NCBI RefSeq assembly: GCF_021023135.1
Contig: NZ_PGFV01000004.1
Span: 186,001-250,000, forward strand
Length of the DNA stretch: 64,000 nucleotides
Source of the DNA: Brevibacterium sp. CCUG 69071
GTDB lineage: Bacteria; Actinomycetota; Actinomycetes; Actinomycetales; Brevibacteriaceae
Direction: 5' to 3'
The notes under the pieces were generated by a model. The model worked only from the letters and a program-made list of their open reading frames with translations. It was not told the DNA's origin and ran no database searches. The translations under genes and the position numbers were made by a program. Positions 48,402 through 58,695 of the stretch are shown piece after piece (within the stretch, counting starts at the first letter, position 1; each line of letters opens with the position of its first letter).

Positions 48402-50987
48402 CTACGCGCGCAGCCGCCCTTCGGTATCCCGCATGGCTTTGGCACCCTGCATCGCCTCGGCGACCTGTTCGCGGCGGGTGACTCCGAGCTTGCGGAACAG
48501 TCGGTAGGTGTGGCCTTCGACAGTGCGCACGCGCACTCCCAGCTCATGGGCGATCTCTGCGTTCGTCAGACCGCTGATGATGAGAGTGCTGATCTGTCGT
48601 TCACGGGTGGTGAGTTCGACGCCTTCCACACTCGGGTCCCGGCTCACCGCCCCCTGTGCCCGGTAGCGTGCGGACAGACCGGTACATCTCCCGGCAAGAT
48701 CGGGCATCGAAGGTCCGTATGCATCGGCGATCGCCAGCAGTGCGGTGCTGTCCCTGTCCAGTAATGCCGCGCCGAGGCGGCCGACGAGTTCGAATTCTCG
48801 GCCGGTTCCCTGTGTCGCCGCAGCACACAGGGCCTCAGGATCGATTTCGTCGAAGTGACGGAAGAGCAGCAACCGGATCAGCACCACGATCGCGGCGGCG
48901 CCGTCGGCTTCGGCTTCCTCGAGCATCGTCCGCAGTTCCCCTGCATACCGGGGATCAGAGGTCCGAATCCCTCGTGCGGCAGTGCGCAGCACGAGAGCTC
49001 TGCGATAGTCGTGGTAGAGACCGGTCAGCGGGAGTTCATCGAATCGGGCGTGGAGATCGTCGGCTTCCTCCGCAGACCCGACGCGCACCACCGCGTACTC
49101 GGCTTCGGCCAAGGCGATGGCCAGCTGTGCCGACTGGTTCCAGTAGTCGAGTCCTTCGATGGCGGCGTGCAGAGCCTGCATCGCCTCGCGCAGATCACCT
49201 TCGAGCAGATGGACCTGGGCCCAGAGGAGGTCGATCGGTCCCGACCGTGCCGCGAGGAATGCGATGTCATGGGTAGGCAGGCAGGTCAGCAGTGCCTTCG
49301 CCTCGGCGATGCGTCCCAGCTGGAGCAGCGCTCTGACCCTGAGCACGGTCAGATGCAGGACTCCCGAGCTCTCCGTTCGGTACTCAGCTCGGACGGTCTC
49401 GAGCAGGGCCAATGCCTCGAGGGTGAGTCCCGAGTCGAGCATGTCCGTGGCGTGAAGGAGCGTATCGAGGAGGTGGACCGTGGTCGGCAGGGCCTTGACC
49501 TGCGAGAGATCCCCGAGGATGCGTCTGTCGATCCTGCGCCCGTCGATCATCGCCGCCGAGACTTCGTCGATGAGCTCAAGGCCGAACTCGGCTCCTGCCC
49601 CGGAGTTCGGGTGCGCGTCTCCCTTCTCTGCCAGCCGTTCGAGTGCCGTGCGGAAGTCCGCAAGAGTCAGCGCCGGGGACGAGTATCCGAAGTCACGGTT
49701 CATCCATATCACCAGAGAATCGATGACGAGCTGGGCACAGCAGGCAGTCCGCACGCTGTGGGCGAGGATGTCGAGTCCGAGCGGGATCTTGTTGCAGCCG
49801 CAGTAGAGTCGGGCGATCTCGAAGAGGTCATGGGGCTCCATCGTCTCCAGCGGTACCTCCGCCAGCAGTCTCATCGCCCGGTGCCAGTCCCCGAAGCCGG
49901 TCGCCGTCCGCGACGCTTCGATCAGACGGCCCACATCGACCCCGATTCCGCAGAGCATGCCCCATTCCGCCCTGATCACCCGTGCCCAGTCCGAGGGGGA
50001 GTCGCCGCAGGCGGCGATGAATTCGTACCATTCCCGGCTCCGCCCCACCGGGGTGGTGTAGCGGATCGTGTCCGAAGCGTGGTTCTCCACGGCCGCATAC
50101 CGGCGCTTCCGTCCCGTCTCGATCTGCAGCTCGCCGGTCACGACCAGCGCGTCCGCTGCCTCCCCCAGCCCCGCCTCGAGCAGGGTGTCGAGTTGCACCT
50201 CACCGGCGAGGACGACCAGTTCGAGTACCTCCCTTTCCTTCGCCGAATAGTCGAACACCTCGATCCTCGTGTAGTCGCGAGCACGTTCGTCGTAGTCGAT
50301 GTCGAGCCCGTCGAGAAGCCAGACTCCCCTGCGCCGGAGGAAGCGTTGACGGCGCGAAGTGTATTCGAGCAGTTCGATGGCCTTTCCGGGATTCCGCCCG
50401 GAGTGGAAGTCGACGATGTCGACGACACCTTGTGAGACGATTCCGCCCAGAGCGTGCTCGATCATGGTCCGGTAGTCGTTCCGGGGAAGGACATCAAGGA
50501 CGAGGTGATCGAGAATGCGGTCTTCGACGAGGATCGAGAACGGCAGCCGACCGCCCTTGGCGCTGGTTCGGGAGAGGACAACGAGTCTGATCGAACCCGC
50601 ACTGGCCAGCTCAGCAAGCACGCCTTGGGAACGCGCGTCGATGAGATGGGCGTCGTCGGCGAAGACGACCCGTGGTTTCCTCGATGAGGTGAGCGTGCTG
50701 ACGATGCGGGCAAGGAGCGTATCGGGGTCGTCAGCGAGGTCGACGAGAAGGCCGAAGACGCCGAATTCGACGCTCTGATGGATCCGATCTCCGCGAATCC
50801 AGAGCGCGTCATCCGCACGTTCCCGAAAAACCGTTGTCGCCAGGAGGGTCTTGCCGACGCCGATCTCGCCTTCGATGAGGATGCCCGAACTCTCCGACCG
50901 GTGCAGAGAGTCGCGGATCAATTCGAGCTCGGTCTCCCGTCCGAAGATCCGCGGCACGGCCGATGCCTCGTTCAATTGGATCGCCAC
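48402..50987 (-). CDS. LAL-type LuxR regulator with AAA ATPase domain
   Basis: An 861-residue regulator. The P-loop is intact (GILIEGEIGVGKTLLATTVF) with Walker B VVFADDAHLID; the central region is helical. The C-terminal LuxR HTH is LTTRERQISTLIISGLTNAE, then IAHELGVRVRTVEGHTYRLF. The start is uncertain: GTG at 50987 overlaps the upstream gene by 16 bp, and ATG at 51059 would add 24 residues. It is probably co-transcribed with the LAL gene upstream. The target is not known; nearby exopolysaccharide and acyl-CoA dehydrogenase genes are candidates. Confidence 0.85.
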   Translation of the reverse strand: MAIQLNEASAVPRIFGRETELELIRDSLHRSESSGILIEGEIGVGKTLLATTVFRERADDALWIRGDRIHQSVEFGVFGLLVDLADDPDTLLARIVSTLTSSRKPRVVFADDAHLIDARSQGVLAELASAGSIRLVVLSRTSAKGGRLPFSILVEDRILDHLVLDVLPRNDYRTMIEHALGGIVSQGVVDIVDFHSGRNPGKAIELLEYTSRRQRFLRRRGVWLLDGLDIDYDERARDYTRIEVFDYSAKEREVLELVVLAGEVQLDTLLEAGLGEAADALVVTGELQIETGRKRRYAAVENHASDTIRYTTPVGRSREWYEFIAACGDSPSDWARVIRAEWGMLCGIGVDVGRLIEASRTATGFGDWHRAMRLLAEVPLETMEPHDLFEIARLYCGCNKIPLGLDILAHSVRTACCAQLVIDSLVIWMNRDFGYSSPALTLADFRTALERLAEKGDAHPNSGAGAEFGLELIDEVSAAMIDGRRIDRRILGDLSQVKALPTTVHLLDTLLHATDMLDSGLTLEALALLETVRAEYRTESSGVLHLTVLRVRALLQLGRIAEAKALLTCLPTHDIAFLAARSGPIDLLWAQVHLLEGDLREAMQALHAAIEGLDYWNQSAQLAIALAEAEYAVVRVGSAEEADDLHARFDELPLTGLYHDYRRALVLRTAARGIRTSDPRYAGELRTMLEEAEADGAAAIVVLIRLLLFRHFDEIDPEALCAAATQGTGREFELVGRLGAALLDRDSTALLAIADAYGPSMPDLAGRCTGLSARYRAQGAVSRDPSVEGVELTTRERQISTLIISGLTNAEIAHELGVRVRTVEGHTYRLFRKLGVTRREQVAEAMQGAKAMRDTEGRLRA

Positions 50988-53542
50988 GCCGTCACCACTT
51001 CTCGCAGCTCCTGTCTGTTGCCGACGTGGAGGCGCCGGTAGATGCGGCCGAGATGCCATTCGACTGTCCGCTTCGACAGGTGCAGCTCTGCTCCGAGCTG
51101 CGCGCTCGAACGGCTGTCGATGATCCCGTCGACGAGTGCAATCTCGAGTTCGCTCAGCGTGTCCTGGACACGGGTGCTGTCTCCGTTGAAGTCGATCACT
51201 CGTTGGCTGCGGCCATAGAGGAGCCGCGCTTCTTTGGCCGCGGTCGCGTTGCCTTCAGCGATCGCCCGGTCACGCGCTGCGGAAGCCAGTTGGGAGCAGA
51301 GCACGGTGGCGCCGAATGCCTGTGCCTCACGTGCCGCGGTGACGAGCGTCTCGAGGGTGTCGCCGTCGAATGCCTCGGCCGCAGATCTGAGAAGCCGGCC
51401 GAGGGAGCCTTCGACCTGCGCGGCGGCAGAAGGAAGCGCGGAGATGGACTGCGGGTGGCCGAGCCTGGCTGCCTCGAGCCAGGCCAGTGCGGTGAGTGTG
51501 TGCGCTCCGCGCTCCTCCACTGCGGCCCCGAGCTCGTACAGTTCGGCGGCGGCGACCGCGGGCGAGGTGTGCGCGAGTGCCTGGAGGTCGAACAGTCTGG
51601 CCTCGAACGAGGCCCACCAGGAATGCTGGCTGGCGTCTGTCGGCTCCATCCCGGCGATCGAGACGATGTCGGAAGCACGTTCGGCCAAGACGGCGGCCAG
51701 GCTCTGCGCCGATCGGGCGACGCCCGAGAGGTCGACGGCATCCGCGGTGTCGTCCATGAGACGCAGTTCTCCGAGGGCTCTGAGCGCATCGGCAATGCGC
51801 CCAGTCCGGAGGTCGACGAGTGCCGTCGTCAGCTGGGTCAGGCGTCTGCTCGAGGTCAGGCCGATGAGTGCAGTCTTCGCTCGGGACCAGGATCCCGCGA
51901 TGTAATAGGCCGCGAAGAACTGTGGGACCGCATCTTCACGTTCGAACGCCCCCGGACCAGGCAGCTCGAACATCAGCCGCGCCTGTTCGATGTAGCCCAA
52001 GCCGACGTCGATTCGGCCCGCCATCACCTCGGCGACCCCGAGGAATGTGCATGCCCGCAGCCGATGCCGCGCCGAACACTCGTGGTTCCGATAGACGGTC
52101 TCTGCGAGGGCACAGGCTGCGGAGAGTCTGCCGCCTTTGAGCTCGAACCGGGCCCGGGTGGCATCGAGACGACCGAGGTCGGACGGCAGAGAGAGTCGAT
52201 CGCGCGCCCAGTCCAGTCGGAGACACTCCGGGTGTCGCGGATCGGTCAGCCGCACCTCCATCGATGCCAGACGGGACAGATATTCGTCTCCGGCCGACTC
52301 CGGATCCGCACATACCTTCGCGATGAGCGGATCGATCAGCTCCCTCGCCTCCCGCAGTCGCCCGACTCCCCATTCGCAGCGAGCGAGTTCGAGGTCGAGC
52401 GCGTCTCCTCGGTACCCGCTCGTCCGGATGATCTCAGCGGCAGCGAGGTAACGTCCCTGCGCGTTCGCCCATGCCGCCGCGGCAAGGATCTGCTCGGGTG
52501 CGGGCACCCGCCCCACGGCGAGGGACCAGCTGGTGTGACCGAACAGCGACCGGTCTCTCAGTCCCGAAGGATCGATCCGGGAGTCGAAGCGGGAGAGAAG
52601 TTCGAGGCTGCGTGAGGGCGGAATCGCAGTGCGAACGTTCTCCGCGGTGACGGGCTCGCGCATGCTCACCTCGGCTCCTCGTCCCTTGGAGATCGATACG
52701 AGGCCGATCTCGGCCAGGGAGTCGAGGGTTGCCGCATCGGTGAGTCGGACGAGGATGTCGTAGGGCACAGACTCGGTCAGCGAAATCGTCTCGACGAGTT
52801 TCCGGCTGCGGTCATCCGCTCGAGCGATTGCGCTCTCGGCGCTGCTCGTCCGGCGATGGCCATAAAGCAGCCGCTCAAGCAGACGGGGGTTGCCGTGCGC
52901 GAGCCCGCAGAGTTCTGAGACCGAACGCGTCTCGGATTCCATGAGACCGATGCTCGTGATCATCGAGGTGGCGGCTTCCTCGTCGATGCCGTCCAGATCG
53001 ACCCTGACCACATGTCCTGCTATCCACAGGCTGACGATGAGGTCGATCGGCGGCCGGGCGGATTCGGCTGCGATGAGGAGGCGGATCCGGCGCGCATCGG
53101 CCAGCTGGGCGAGGACGGCCAGAGAGTGGTCGTCAACGAGGTCGGCGTTGTCAACGACGACGAGTGCTTCTGCCCCGGTGGCACGGCGGGAGAAGAGTTC
53201 GCCGAGGACTGACAACGACCGACCTGGCGCGATGTCGGTGCCGATCCCCGCTTGGGAGAGGATGATCTCGAAGATCCCGAGATTCCTCGTGCGAGCCCCC
53301 TCGGAACCACGCAGTCGGGTGACCGACAGGCTCGGGTCGAGGCGCGAGAGCGCTGCGTTGGCGACCGTCGTCTTCCCGACACCGGCCGGACCGACGATGA
53401 GCACTCCGCAGCATTCGTCACCGGAGAGTGATTCGACGACCACGGCGAGTTCGGACGCGTATCCGAACATGCGACGAGACGGCGGCGTCTGCGTTGTCCG
53501 AGTACCCTGATCTGCCACGACGCTCAATTTTCCATTCTCCAC
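50972..53542 (-). CDS. LAL-type LuxR regulator with AAA ATPase domain
   Basis: An 856-residue regulator with a GTG start. The P-loop is GVLIVGPAGVGKTTVANAAL near residue 50 and Walker B is LVVVDNADLVDD. Long helical repeats lead to a C-terminal LuxR HTH (LSELEIALVDGIIDSRSSAQ, then LGAELHLSKRTVEWHLGRIY). The second helix includes TVEWHLGRIYRRLHV, typical of LuxR recognition helices. No convincing ribosome-binding site precedes the start. It overlaps the next LAL gene, so both are likely on one transcript from the A/T-rich region upstream. Confidence 0.85.
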   Translation of the reverse strand: MENGKLSVVADQGTRTTQTPPSRRMFGYASELAVVVESLSGDECCGVLIVGPAGVGKTTVANAALSRLDPSLSVTRLRGSEGARTRNLGIFEIILSQAGIGTDIAPGRSLSVLGELFSRRATGAEALVVVDNADLVDDHSLAVLAQLADARRIRLLIAAESARPPIDLIVSLWIAGHVVRVDLDGIDEEAATSMITSIGLMESETRSVSELCGLAHGNPRLLERLLYGHRRTSSAESAIARADDRSRKLVETISLTESVPYDILVRLTDAATLDSLAEIGLVSISKGRGAEVSMREPVTAENVRTAIPPSRSLELLSRFDSRIDPSGLRDRSLFGHTSWSLAVGRVPAPEQILAAAAWANAQGRYLAAAEIIRTSGYRGDALDLELARCEWGVGRLREARELIDPLIAKVCADPESAGDEYLSRLASMEVRLTDPRHPECLRLDWARDRLSLPSDLGRLDATRARFELKGGRLSAACALAETVYRNHECSARHRLRACTFLGVAEVMAGRIDVGLGYIEQARLMFELPGPGAFEREDAVPQFFAAYYIAGSWSRAKTALIGLTSSRRLTQLTTALVDLRTGRIADALRALGELRLMDDTADAVDLSGVARSAQSLAAVLAERASDIVSIAGMEPTDASQHSWWASFEARLFDLQALAHTSPAVAAAELYELGAAVEERGAHTLTALAWLEAARLGHPQSISALPSAAAQVEGSLGRLLRSAAEAFDGDTLETLVTAAREAQAFGATVLCSQLASAARDRAIAEGNATAAKEARLLYGRSQRVIDFNGDSTRVQDTLSELEIALVDGIIDSRSSAQLGAELHLSKRTVEWHLGRIYRRLHVGNRQELREVVTAWRSN

Positions 53543-55076: not shown

Positions 55077-56225
55077 ATGGATCTTGAACTCAACGACATT
55101 CAGCAAGAACTCGCCAGCACACTGAGCAAGTACCTGCGCAGCGAATACGACACCGCCAAGCGCGAGGAGATCCTCCGCAGCGATGAGGGCATCTCCCGCG
55201 AGCACTGGCAGCAGTTCGCGGAAATGGGCCTGGTCGGGCTCGCCGTGCCGGAGAACTACGGAGGCGCCGGAATGACCTTCAACGAGGTGGCCGTCGTCGC
55301 CGAGGCATTCGGCCGCTCCCTCGTACTCGAACCCTTCCTCGCCACCGCGGTGCTCGGAGCGAACGCGATCGTACTCGGCGGCAGTGAGGAGCAGAAGCAG
55401 GAGATCCTGCCCGGAGTCTGCGAAGGCCAGACCTTCCTCGCCCTCGCGGCCTTCGAACCGAACTCCCGCTACGCGCTCGAGTCCCCCGAGACGAGCGCCA
55501 CCAGCGCAGCCGGGGGCTCCGTGACGATCACCGGCGAGAAGAACTCCGTGCTCGGCGGCGACGTCGCCGACCACTTCATCGTCACCGCAGTCGAGAACGG
55601 GGAACTCGGACTGTTCCTCGTCGCCGCCGATGCCACCGGCGTCACCCGGGCCGCGCACCGCCAGGCCGATGGCCTCGGCAGCGCAAGCGTGAAGTTCGAC
55701 AACGCTCCCGCCCAGCGCCTGGGCGGCGGAGATGCCCGTGAAGTCCTCGCCGAGGTGATCGATACCGGCAATGCCGCGATCATCGCCGAGGCGGTCGGAG
55801 CGATGGAGGCCTCACTGACGATGACGGCCGAGTACCTCAAGACCCGCGAGCAGTTCGGTGCCCCGATCGGCGCGAACCAGGCGCTGCAGCACCGCGCGTC
55901 CGACCTCTACGCGGAACTCGAGTACGCCCGAAGCATGGCCCTGTACTCACGTCTGGCTGTGACCTCGGAAGCGGCCGGAGCCGAGAAGGACCGCCACCGC
56001 GATGTCATCGCCTCGAAGATCGTCATCGACCAGTCGGCTCGCAACATCAGCCAGGAGTCGATCCAGATGCACGGCGGCATCGGTATGACCATGGAATATC
56101 CCATCGGCCACTATGCCAAGCGCCTGACCGTCATGACTCGCACCTTCGACGACGCAGATTCGCTGACCGCCGAGCTTGCCGAGATCGGCGGACTCATCGA
56201 ACCCCAGGCCGCCGACCTCAACTGA
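55077..56225 (+). CDS. Acyl-CoA dehydrogenase, small-subunit type
   Basis: A 382-residue acyl-CoA dehydrogenase homologue. GLAVPENYGGAGMTFNEVAVV is the N-terminal family block, the middle domain lacks a typical FAD-site TxPxAGSD motif (reading LAAFEPNSRYALESPET), and the C-terminal part has KTREQFGAPIGANQALQHR and IQMHGGIGMTMEYPIGHYAK. Partner subunits of alpha-beta dehydrogenases show this divergence. With the gene 38 bp upstream it forms a probable heteromeric enzyme for branched, cyclic or dicarboxylic acyl-CoA. Ribosome-binding site AGAGGA precedes the ATG. Two terminator hairpins follow. Confidence 0.9.
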   Translation: MDLELNDIQQELASTLSKYLRSEYDTAKREEILRSDEGISREHWQQFAEMGLVGLAVPENYGGAGMTFNEVAVVAEAFGRSLVLEPFLATAVLGANAIVLGGSEEQKQEILPGVCEGQTFLALAAFEPNSRYALESPETSATSAAGGSVTITGEKNSVLGGDVADHFIVTAVENGELGLFLVAADATGVTRAAHRQADGLGSASVKFDNAPAQRLGGGDAREVLAEVIDTGNAAIIAEAVGAMEASLTMTAEYLKTREQFGAPIGANQALQHRASDLYAELEYARSMALYSRLAVTSEAAGAEKDRHRDVIASKIVIDQSARNISQESIQMHGGIGMTMEYPIGHYAKRLTVMTRTFDDADSLTAELAEIGGLIEPQAADLN

Positions 56226-56312
56226 GGTCGAGTACCGCTGTCGGGGCCTGTCCCCGCCCGGTACACCCGGCCCCGCCCGGAACGCCTCACGAGAGGCGCC
56301 TCACACGGGCAC

Positions 56313-56390
56313 GTGCCCCGGTCCCCTGAAGTGGGAGTGCCGGGGCACAACACCGCCGAGGCGGCACGATCACCATCGTGCCGCCTCGGC
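56313..56390 (+). terminator. Tandem terminator hairpins after the dehydrogenase operon
   Basis: The first hairpin pairs GTGCCCCGG (56313-56321) with CCGGGGCAC (56340-56348). The second is a perfect 16-bp stem, GCCGAGGCGGCACGAT (56355-56370) with ATCGTGCCGCCTCGGC (56375-56390), loop CACC, followed by GCTTT. It is the strongest terminator in the window. Confidence 0.85.
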
Positions 56391-56529
56391 GCTTTCAGAG
56401 CCTCGGTGCCATGGCTGTCTCGGTGATCTCCCTCTGCTAAGACTCCCCCTAGCCTCAACGGATCCGCACAGCCTCCGGGCGGCCTGCAGCCTCCCGCGGC
56501 CCCCTCTCGGCCGCTCGCCACTGCCCTGG

Positions 56530-56706
56530 GTGGACGTTCCGAGCCGCTCACCTGCACTGGGTGTGGACGCCCCGGGCCGCTTGCCTGCCCTAGGTGGACG
56601 ATCCGAGCCGCGCACCTGCCCTAGGTGGACGTTTCGGGCTGATCGAGGGGGTCTAGTGGACCAAATGGGCCGATTCGCCGGAGCAGATTCGGCCCAGATC
56701 GTCCAC
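56530..56706. repeat. Half-site array downstream of the DUF559 gene
   Basis: GTGGAC starts at 56530, 56563, 56594, 56625 and 56656, spaced 33, 31, 31 and 31 bp. Each is followed by a variable 4-6 bases and a GAGCCG/GGGCCGA-like block. The last copy (GTGGACCAAATGGGCCGA, 56656-56673) faces an inverted copy (TCGGCCCAGATCGTCCAC, 56689-56706), forming an imperfect 18-bp-arm palindrome. The same half-site occurs on the other side of the DUF559 gene. The flanking part of this 521-bp gene-free stretch (56226-56746) contains the terminators above. Confidence 0.8.
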
Positions 56707-56746
56707 CCACACGGTCTTCAGCGAGCTTCATTGAGGGCATCTGCGC

Positions 56747-57685
56747 TCATCCCAGACCGAGCTTGCGCCGAATCTTCGCCTCAAGCTGCCGGTAGTCGGT
56801 CATCCGAGTCACCTTCAGAACGGTCCAGCCCGCATCTACCAGTGCTTCATCGCGTTCCGAATCACGAGTCCACTGCTTCGTCGACTCTCTGTGCAGGTCG
56901 CTGTCGTATTCGAGAGCCAGCTTCTCCTCCTCATACCCCAAGTCGGGCTCGATCACTCCCCGAGCCAGATCGGACGCCACCTGCGGGTGCACGGTCGGCT
57001 CGGGCAGTCCTACCCGGAGGGTCCACAACCGCAGACCGGTTTCCTGCGGCGAGTCCACGCCCGGCCGGATCAGTCGAACGGCCTCGAGCAGTGTCTCCCG
57101 ACCTCGCAGACGACGAGGCGCCTGCAGAGCCGCGGTGATGTCATCGATGCTCATCTGCGCCGGCCCGTGCCAATTGCCGACTCCGGCATCGCCGACCATC
57201 ACCAGGTCATCGAGGTTGAGCCTGGCGCCGAGCGTGATGAAGACTTCGGCAGGCATGAGCACCGGCAGGTCGAGCCATTCGGCGCGAGTCAGGTACGGGG
57301 TGCGACGCAGCGATACCCGCGGCATTCGGATCCGCATGTTCCTGTCGTCGGCACACAGGTGCAGATGATCATTGCTCAGCGGCGGAGGCAGTGGCCAGCC
57401 GAAGATGCGCGCGGCCGTGGCTCCGTCGGCGAAGACGTTGGGGAACTTGAGCCGGGCGGCCCGCAGCCGCAGCGAGTCCCAGGTCCATGCATCGCCGGCC
57501 CACTTCGGGGTGCGTAGCGACTCAGTGCTGTTGCGATCCATGCGCACCCCGGGCAGGACTATCGGACATCTCGGCGTATTCAGCATCTGATGCCGAGTGA
57601 TGCCGAACTCGCCTGCCTGACGCGTCCGAAAGAGGCGCGGATAGTCACGCTTCTCCCATTGTCTGCTGTTGAACATACGTGCCAT
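56747..57685 (-). CDS. DUF559-domain protein, Vsr-like nuclease fold
   Basis: A 312-residue protein. The N-terminal two-thirds (MARMFNSRQWEKRDYPRLF... with RHQMLNTPRC) resembles AbiEi-like DNA-binding antitoxin openings. The C-terminal DUF559 domain shows the restriction-endonuclease-like pattern: an early Glu in VDSPQETGLRLW, Pro-Asp in IEPDLGYEEE, and LALEYDSDLHRES with the active-site Glu-Asp pair, then RDEALVDAGWTVLKVT. It may cut or nick DNA; activity is not established for the family. The start at 57685 is chosen over 57754, which would add a dubious 23 residues; ATG at 57676 is another option. It is bracketed by arrays of one 18-bp half-site. Confidence 0.75.
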   Translation of the reverse strand: MARMFNSRQWEKRDYPRLFRTRQAGEFGITRHQMLNTPRCPIVLPGVRMDRNSTESLRTPKWAGDAWTWDSLRLRAARLKFPNVFADGATAARIFGWPLPPPLSNDHLHLCADDRNMRIRMPRVSLRRTPYLTRAEWLDLPVLMPAEVFITLGARLNLDDLVMVGDAGVGNWHGPAQMSIDDITAALQAPRRLRGRETLLEAVRLIRPGVDSPQETGLRLWTLRVGLPEPTVHPQVASDLARGVIEPDLGYEEEKLALEYDSDLHRESTKQWTRDSERDEALVDAGWTVLKVTRMTDYRQLEAKIRRKLGLG

Positions 57686-57792
57686 GCTGTCGCATTTCCA
57701 ACGAGAAAGGGAGAACTGAAAACCGGCCTGTGGACAGAGATTCTTCATCCACAAGAAAAGACGCGCAAGTCACTTCGGATATGCACTGCTCG

Positions 57793-57904
57793 GTGGACGA
57801 AATGGGCCGAAGCGCCCGTCACTGGCGGACGAAAGGGGCCGACTCATCCGCGGCAGATCGGCCCAAAAAGTCCACCCAGGAGCAGATCGGCCTTATTCGC
57901 CCAC
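57793..57904. repeat. Half-site array upstream of the DUF559 gene
   Basis: Two direct copies, GTGGACGAAATGGGCCGA (57793-57810) and GCGGACGAAAGGGGCCGA (57825-57842), are followed by two inverted copies, TCGGCCCAAAAAGTCCAC (57858-57875) and TCGGCCTTATTCGCCCAC (57887-57904). Start-to-start spacings of like copies are 32 and 29 bp. The first copy matches the copy at 56656 at 17 of 18 bases. It lies in the 380-bp gene-free stretch 57686-58065, in front of the DUF559 gene; the rest of the stretch shows nothing recognisable. Confidence 0.8.
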
Positions 57905-58065
57905 CGAAGAGAGCGGACGCAGCGGACTGGCGGAACTTCCGGCAGGAGAGAGGACAGAACGTGCGACCGCGGCGGCAGAATCAGCACGGATCGTCCGCCG
58001 GATCACGCGGGACGCGGTGGGCCGGCCGCTGCAACGTGCGGCAACGGCCGCATGGAACCAGAGTG

Positions 58066-58695
58066 TCAGCCGACGGGCTGGCCGTAGACGTGGCGGCGGA
58101 CCCACGAGTGCATCGTGATCGCTGCAGCCGCCGCTGCGTTCATCGACCTGGTCGAACCGTATTGCGCGATCGACAGCACCGCGGTGCTCGCCTCGTGTGC
58201 CGCCTCGCTCAGTCCCGGGCCTTCCTGGCCGAACAGGAGAAGGCAGCTCTTCGGCAGGTCATAAGTCTCCAGCGGCACGGAATCCGGGAAGTTGTCGATG
58301 CCGATGAGCGGCACATCGTTCTCCGCGCACCACTGCAGCAGGTCGTCGACGCTCGGGTGGTGGATGATGTGCTGGTACTTGTCCGTGACCATCGCGCCGC
58401 GCCGGTTCCACCGACGCCGGCCGACGATGTGCACGGCGGCGGCGTTGAAGGCGTTCGCGGTGCGCACGACGGAGCCGATGTTGAGATCGTGCTGCCAGTT
58501 CTCGACCCCGACGTGGAAGTCATGCCGAGTCGTATCGAGATCGGCCACGATCGCATCGTGCTTCCAGTAGCGGTAGCGATCGACGACGTTGCGCCGATCG
58601 CCCTCGCGCAGCAGCTCGGGATCGAAGTGCTCACCGACAGGCCAGGGGCCGGTCCACGGACCGACCCCCACCTGCGGCTGCGCGCCGTCTGTCAC
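58066..58695 (-). CDS. TrmH/SpoU-family RNA 2'-O-methyltransferase
   Basis: A 209-residue SPOUT methyltransferase. The three knot motifs are intact: NIGSVVRTANAFNAAAVHIV, CLLLFGQEGPGLSEAAHEA and SIAQYGSTRSMNAAAAAAI, with catalytic Arg in the first. It uses S-adenosylmethionine to methylate a ribose in tRNA or rRNA; the target cannot be told from sequence. A GTG start overlaps the upstream permease stop by 4 bp (GTGA), so it is the last gene of the ABC operon. Confidence 0.92.
   Translation of the reverse strand: MTDGAQPQVGVGPWTGPWPVGEHFDPELLREGDRRNVVDRYRYWKHDAIVADLDTTRHDFHVGVENWQHDLNIGSVVRTANAFNAAAVHIVGRRRWNRRGAMVTDKYQHIIHHPSVDDLLQWCAENDVPLIGIDNFPDSVPLETYDLPKSCLLLFGQEGPGLSEAAHEASTAVLSIAQYGSTRSMNAAAAAAITMHSWVRRHVYGQPVG

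Follow-up and report, generated by a model that had tools for sequence, protein, structure and literature searches.

A nuclease gene between two sets of half-sites

The window, i.e., the whole stretch of 64,000 nucleotides of Brevibacterium sp. CCUG 69071 that was analysed (contig NZ_PGFV01000004.1, positions 186,001 to 250,000), carries a nuclease gene on the minus strand at 56750-57754. Counted from a mechanically assigned TTG start, the gene specifies 335 amino acids; its stop codon lies at 56747-56749, and the open reading frame including the stop spans 56747-57754. Translation probably begins at an ATG further in, that of residue 24 or that of residue 27, as most of residues 1-29 have a pLDDT below 50 in the predicted structure. 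According to Pfam, the neighbouring genes encode a SpoU methylase and an acyl-CoA dehydrogenase, and the same search of the neighbours gave no AbiEii (DUF1814) toxin gene beside the nuclease gene.

Copies of one half-site are present on both sides of the gene. On the 3' side, direct copies are located at 56530, 56563, 56594, 56625, and 56656 and an inverted one at 56690. The last two form an inner palindrome of about 57 bp (56653-56709, unstranded), while the four further half-sites constitute a tandem array on the plus strand (56521-56641) with a period of 31-33 bp. The half-sites on the 5' side are direct at 57793 and 57825 and inverted at 57859; those at 57825 and 57859 again make up an inner palindrome of about 57 bp (57822-57878, unstranded). 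The best copy on this side is the outer one (57792-57810, plus strand), and a degenerate inverted outer half-site (57885-57905, minus strand) was read from the sequence. Pattern search together with the sequence itself thus recovered the set that a first-pass annotation of this DNA had described, namely at least five direct and one inverted half-sites downstream of the gene and two direct and two inverted ones upstream, at a near-constant spacing of 29-33 bp. The best copies on the two sides, those at 56656 and 57793, are identical at all but 1 of 18 bases, with their starts 1137 bp apart. With up to three mismatches, GTGGACGAAATGGGCCGA gave four matches in the whole window, all around the nuclease gene, where shuffled sequences lead one to expect 0.09. 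A relaxed pattern with up to two mismatches gave 23 matches in the window versus 10.2 expected; nine of these are half-sites of the two arrays, and the remaining 14 all have two mismatches.

Some other features of the region were seen along the way. A perfect 17-bp hairpin at 56354-56391, near the stop codon of the dehydrogenase gene, is present in many relatives at the SpoU-dehydrogenase locus and is perhaps the terminator of that gene; the terminator scan of 56200-58100 did not flag it. Two neighbouring long open reading frames on the minus strand (48402-51059 and 50972-53542) overlap by 88 bp and look, by eye, like LuxR-type ATPase regulators.

The window is not the only place in its genome with such sequences. 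With up to two mismatches, the window half-site occurs at two further places, both without a nuclease gene: it is clustered at C14:162421-162587 and arranged as a palindrome at C14:267384; eight more single matches have three mismatches each, where a reversed-pattern control gave one. A paralogue of the window nuclease with 47 % identity and an in-frame stop is located at C19:28237-29235 (L013 6304-7260). It is bracketed on each side by a palindrome unlike the window's own type, so that the rule is one of such a gene between two copies of its own palindrome rather than of one given repeat. This second palindrome family of the genome consists of two flanking and three solo palindromes, all of 61 bp, and one unpaired half-site. 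A half-site at 57982-57998 of the window (minus strand) resembles it (GCGGACGATCCGTGC) and is perhaps a decayed solo palindrome directly beside the window cassette.

The predicted enzyme

The model of the window protein, a confident one (mean pLDDT 89.4, pTM 0.84), suggests an AbiEi-like region fused to a nuclease domain of the EDxHD/Vsr type. Residues 37-230 (57065-57646, minus strand), the presumed reader of the palindrome, matched the AbiEi antitoxin 6y8q in a structure comparison (Z 8.3, 167 residues), and residues 236-335 (56750-57049, minus strand) matched the catalytic domain of I-Bth0305I, 3r3p (Z 8.3, 91 residues aligned, rmsd 3.0); Z values of around 8, as for these two folds, are moderate. 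Rv2827c (1zel) was found with a Foldseek E value of 7e-4 and a Z of 7.1, and Vsr (1cw0) fitted the nuclease domain with a Z of 7.2. Residues E238, D271, H288, and D298, the presumed active-site candidates, do not vary in either of two family alignments (32 and 66 sequences).

In the first-pass annotation the gene was taken for a DUF559 nuclease-fold gene. Gene and strand are as described there. The Pfam score for DUF559 (16 bits) falls below the curated cut-off of 20.6, as does that for MTES_1575 (26.6 bits; gathering cut-off 38.2). At E ≤ 0.01, MTES_1575 matches 30 of 32 family members and DUF559 matches 14. Among the same 32 proteins, AbiEi profiles of PADLOC were found in up to ten, its mREase_II profile in five, and NCBIfam PRK09767.1 in two; the window protein matched none of these. 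Pfam gave no Y1_Tnp match in the window protein at E ≤ 1, a sequence search of solved structures gave nothing at E ≤ 0.1, and a fusion of AbiEi with a nuclease was not among the structures listed as matches to the model.

The length of the palindromes fits both modules. I-Bth0305I is described as forming a dimer on a target of nearly 60 bp (excerpts of PMC3943268). For Rv2827c, the bound sequence consists of 23-bp inverted repeats separated by 13 bp, which gives a span of 59 bp (excerpts of PMC7319586). As far as these excerpts go, published proteins with either module use sites of about 60 bp, as is seen here.

Bracketing across the family

A search of 59 genomes for homologues of the window protein (E ≤ 1e-5) was positive in 49, among them 35 of the 36 other Brevibacterium genomes. 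From 130 match rows, 111 places were fetched and 109 were counted; a fragment (L122) and a locus with a large repeat in its flanks (L123) were left out, and L013 coincides with L010. For each gene, the 5' flank of 500 bp was compared with the 3' flank of equal length, a local score of at least 40 being the threshold. As controls we used 239 open reading frames of at least 200 amino acids, taken from 20 randomly chosen 20-kb stretches of these genomes. The flanks shared sequence at 78 of the 109 homologue genes versus 1 of the 239 control frames, and 31 homologues stayed below the threshold. The sole positive control (L132:18027-19128), with about 140 bp common to both flanks, is itself a nuclease-like gene; judged by reading, its protein appears to have the same kind of nuclease ending as the family, which would make it in effect a blind find.

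A matched pair of palindromes, mostly of about 60 bp, was present at 61 of the 109 homologue loci, and inverted repeats with a score of at least 14 occurred in both flanks of 34 of 109 homologues versus 2 of 239 controls. Among pairs with a cross score of at least 24, the 5' palindrome sits 0-441 bp from the mechanical start codon. Outside Brevibacterium, flank sharing was seen at 17 of 25 loci (Jiangella, Agromyces, Arthrobacter, Curtobacterium, Microbacterium, and others), some of the stretches being G+C-rich and maybe weak. In the database homologue set, of which 78 of 80 loci were counted (the flanks of L206 and L260 were too short), 37 of 53 Brevibacterium loci passed the threshold; these 53 largely duplicate the genomes counted above. 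Three plasmid records, from Arthrobacter, and one phage record also carry homologues (E ≤ 1e-5). The bracketing of the nuclease gene by its own palindromes is a family-wide pattern, and the window gene is one case of it.

Solo palindromes

The palindromes also occur on their own, up to about 20 per genome. The half-site ATTGTTGGGTCGATCCACGG, with up to three mismatches, has 17-42 copies in each of the six genus genomes with the cognate nuclease and zero in 26 of the 31 others; the remaining five contain 33 (G011), 16 (G034), 9 (G001), 6 (G020), and 1 (G025). A protein search in G011, G034, G001, and G020 yielded no close relative of the cognate nuclease of this type, the best matches having 22-48 % identity. 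For GTCTCCTGCGGGTGGATCC, 23-33 copies were counted in four cognate genomes and 0-15 in the others, for which the control with the reversed pattern reaches 6 at most. The half-site AACGGTTGGTAAGTTCGTC has 11-16 copies in the four genomes whose nuclease flanks carry it; the highest numbers in other genomes, 12 in G028 and 9 in G006, come with a related nuclease, and the rest have 0-3. All three types are thus more abundant where a genome has the cognate nuclease (Mann-Whitney 2e-6, 6e-4, and 4e-4 for ATTGTTGGGTCGATCCACGG, GTCTCCTGCGGGTGGATCC, and AACGGTTGGTAAGTTCGTC, respectively, in genomes that are related and not independent). The cut-offs of an accompanying Fisher test were chosen with these counts in view.

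The solo palindromes were looked at more closely in G013, where 19 of 20 regions taken from among the matches listed contained one. All 19 are exactly 60 bp long and conserved right to their ends and not beyond. Nine lie between convergent genes, four between minus-strand genes, one between plus-strand genes, and one between divergent genes, whereas two are inside predicted open reading frames and two could not be classified. Decay of palindromes in genomes without the nuclease was considered and discarded as a clear rule: the listed half-sites have on average 1.7 mismatches in G034, but those of G001 are not decayed (0.44, versus 0.65-0.66 in two nuclease-bearing genomes).

A genome search for a link between half-site and gene, which the first-pass annotation had proposed, gave a divided answer. 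Three types are concentrated where the cognate nuclease is, but the window's own half-site stands at two places of its genome without a gene and another type occurs in four genomes without a cognate. In an element of the REP kind, copies that stand alone are to be expected.

Palindrome type and nuclease

Protein identity and palindrome similarity are correlated over 64 loci (Mantel r = 0.65, reached in 0 of 2000 permutations), with palindrome similarity at background level once protein identity drops below 60 %. Among pairs without synteny, the rank correlation falls to just 0.13, and the mean palindrome similarity is 0.25 in the 26 pairs with more than 60 % protein identity versus 0.12-0.14 below. 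The background level below 60 % and the weak non-syntenic correlation indicate that sites change faster than enzymes and that orthologues carry much of the signal. Four protein segments gave rank correlations of 0.18-0.20 with palindrome similarity, and no best-tracking segment could be distinguished. No strong central core common to the palindrome types was present in 26 representatives.

At one locus, the nuclease is syntenic in 11 species and in the genome of the window, among genes that we take, from reading their sequences, to encode TetR, MFS, and FMO proteins. A palindrome pair was scored at nine of these TetR-FMO loci. In 139 of 144 non-independent comparisons, similarity was higher between the 5' and 3' palindromes of one locus than between orthologous palindromes. 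Both flanks of this old locus thus changed in concert. Similarity within loci exceeded that between orthologues in 54 of 60, 32 of 40, 17 of 24, 13 of 40, and 3 of 24 comparisons in the other synteny groups. The last three groups do not show concerted change, because their orthologous palindromes are still alike (means 0.51-0.68); the value of 3 of 24 counts against it.

Filled and solo loci and relocation

The TetR-FMO locus exists in several states. In 12 loci it is filled, with the nuclease in a gap of 1295-1624 bp; both palindromes were scored in nine of these and the 3' one alone in three (L018, L024, and L028). Five genomes (G007, G013, G034, G033, and G022) have a gap of 122-188 bp with a single palindrome and no nuclease, G024 has no palindrome, and in G011 the palindrome is interrupted. 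The gap measures 741 bp in G012 and 709 bp in G019 (L179 and L183), contains no nuclease, and by eye may encode a small membrane protein. Interrupted or half-replaced palindromes were noticed after the TetR gene in G011 (L185) and after the SpoU gene in G034 (L148); the interrupting sequences are possibly insertion elements that target palindromes.

The SpoU-dehydrogenase locus of the window was inspected by eye in 22 other species. The nuclease is absent from this locus in all of them, and a solo palindrome stands there in 16. For ten of the 16 (G024, G033, G008, G032, G013, G022, G007, G023, G012, and G019), palindromes of the type in question bracket a nuclease gene at another place of that genome. 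A nuclease with a related type is present in G006, G027, and G028, and no matching nuclease type was seen by eye for G011, G026, and G036. The locus has no palindrome in G001, G020, G021, and G010, half of one in G034, and is partly N in G005. A third orthologous site carries an ATTGT type in G013, G032, G011, and G007, a GTCTCC type in G024 and G033, and none in G034, G021, and G000. Either in-place replacement or repeated insertion may account for the different types at orthologous sites. A clean empty site at base resolution, from which a target-site duplication like that of an insertion sequence could be read, was not obtained at the loci compared.

The window nuclease and its relatives in G033 (77 % identity) and G022 (72 %) have no neighbours in common on both sides within about 1.5 kb, and DNA homology among the three cassettes is limited to the stretch between the arrays. 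An array similar to that on the 3' side of the window gene flanks the G033 nuclease at its different locus. G033 also contains a second, decayed cassette fragment, at a distance of about 15 kb from the intact cassette and 93 % identical to it over 257 bp. The fragment starts at the outermost half-site, runs through array and palindrome into the 3' end of the gene, and is then broken. These sequence comparisons indicate that cassettes relocate.

A nuclease-palindrome cassette and its alternatives

The bracketing, the scattered solo palindromes of constant length and their association with a cognate nuclease, the concerted change at an old locus, the filled and solo alleles, the relocation, and the fold were all shown here; what we infer from them is binding, cutting, and copying by repair. 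In the reading that we favour, and which we hold to be somewhat probable, the window region is one cassette of a nuclease-palindrome system that is REP/RAYT-like but built on a homing-type nuclease, which would recognise the palindrome, with cutting and copying putative. With little short of an even chance, this would represent a class of selfish repeat system in Actinobacteria that has gone unrecognised: the nuclease, of homing type and equipped with a DNA reader derived from an antitoxin, would spread a 60-bp palindrome over the chromosome and keep its copies uniform, protein and whole palindrome population changing specificity together.

The protein would bind its cognate palindrome of about 60 bp as a dimer whose subunits each contact one half-site, and the bound nuclease would cut or nick there. 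Repair from another palindrome copy would homogenise the palindrome set of the genome, while repair from a palindrome-gene-palindrome donor, with only half-site homology, would copy the cassette into a solo palindrome. In the reverse direction, recombination between the two flanking palindromes would delete the gene and leave a solo palindrome. An enzyme cutting some 20 host sites should harm the host unless it nicks, is conditional, or is tightly autorepressed, and this toxicity is the weak point of the model. Against it stand also the half-sites without a cognate nuclease in G011 (33), G034 (16), G001 (9), and G020 (6), and the presence of the window's own type at just two other clear places. 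The same side of the balance includes the 31 homologues below the flank-sharing threshold, the large share of syntenic orthologues in the protein-palindrome correlation, the weaker synteny groups (above all that with 3 of 24), the lack of a core common to the palindrome types and of a clean empty site, the relatedness of the genomes, and the moderate Z values.

The strongest rival, unlikely in our estimation, sees the palindromes as operators of an AbiEi/Rv2827c-like repressor with a retained nuclease domain; the dispersed copies would be a regulon or decoys, and there would be no enzyme-driven mobility. The AbiEi-like fold of the model and the frequent presence of a 5' palindrome are in line with autoregulation, and AbiEi and Rv2827c are described as binding inverted repeats in their own promoters (excerpts of PMC7319586). 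However, such a repressor accounts for the 5' palindrome and leaves the 3' copy, the scattered copies, and the movement of cassettes unexplained. The range of 0-441 bp between 5' palindrome and mechanical start, the 9 of 19 dispersed G013 copies between convergent genes, the invariant nuclease residues, and the filled and solo alleles with relocation all speak against it.

It is improbable that the protein is a defence or self/non-self nuclease, acting in abortive infection or restriction, with palindromes that mark self or control activation. The PADLOC matches of some family members (AbiEi, mREase_II) would suit such a role, but the window protein has none, no AbiEii partner lies beside its gene, and the dispersed lineage-specific copies would be unexplained. 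Quite improbable, too, is that another enzyme moves the palindromes and the nuclease gene is a passenger, as a palindrome type without its cognate in G011, G034, G001, and G020 could suggest; the three types are concentrated in cognate-nuclease genomes, and Y1_Tnp, the transposase family that the search covered, was found in 0 of 37 genus genomes versus 5 of 14 control genomes, by which mobilisation by a RAYT of this family was also rejected. That the palindromes are bidirectional terminators of the usual kind next to genes, or repeats that arose by chance, is very improbable, and both readings were discarded, the convergent setting of 9 of 19 G013 palindromes being outweighed by the 0.09 matches expected in shuffles, flank sharing in just 1 of 239 control genes, the 0 terminator-like sites in 56200-58100, the lack of any Rfam match in seven loci (which also removed a known RNA element from consideration), and a separate hairpin near the solo palindromes at the SpoU locus in many relatives.

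Comparison with known systems

To our knowledge, the dedicated partners of REP-like palindromes are Y1/HUH transposases. The first-pass annotation had likened the locus to a RAYT transposase with its REP elements, with a different enzyme family. As architecture this comparison holds, on the strength of the bracketing, the dispersed solo copies, their cognate concentration, and the absence of Y1 from 37 genomes; its suggestion of a domesticated mobile unit is not favoured, as the presumed active-site residues are conserved and cassettes relocate. Among the titles and abstract openings listed in searches of open-licence PMC papers, none described such a nuclease paired with its own palindromes.

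As in a REPtron (RAYT/TnpA_REP plus REP), the gene lies between palindromes that are also dispersed, mostly intergenic, and often between convergent genes. Unlike in a REPtron, the enzyme is not of the Y1/HUH type (no Y1_Tnp in the protein or in 37 genomes), the palindromes are of about 60 bp instead of the 20-50 nt given for REP in excerpts of PMC8266576, and a GTAG-type tetranucleotide tag, described in the same excerpts, is absent from the one type profiled, with flanking positions shared by at most 11 of 19 palindromes in G013. The EDxHD homing endonuclease I-Bth0305I resembles the predicted enzyme in the fold of its catalytic domain (3r3p) and in a site of about 60 bp, and the invariant E238, D271, H288, and D298 may correspond to the E, D, H, and D of its active site. 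It differs in that an AbiEi-like reader and many solo sites in the host genome are found here and in that the target is not split by the insertion: complete palindromes stand on both sides, and five gene-free alleles have a solo palindrome. With the AbiEi antitoxin and Rv2827c of the type IV AbiE toxin-antitoxin systems, the protein shares the fold of residues 37-230, and characterised proteins of this kind recognise pairs of 23-bp inverted repeats (spanning 59 bp for Rv2827c in excerpts of PMC7319586), whereas the window gene has no AbiEii toxin beside it, its product has a fused nuclease domain, and the sites are also found 3' of the gene and dispersed.

In conclusion, predicted nuclease genes of Brevibacterium and related actinobacteria often lie between two copies of a palindrome of about 60 letters that is specific to the enzyme lineage and also scattered over the chromosome. 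This pattern suggests a self-spreading repeat system of a kind not recognised so far. If this is true, the spread and uniformity of bacterial palindromic repeats could be put to the test in an independent second system, which would also supply a large natural collection of long recognition sites for nucleases. Compared with REP and RAYT, a non-homologous enzyme appears to own REP-like palindromes here, in many natural enzyme-site pairs of diverging specificity.
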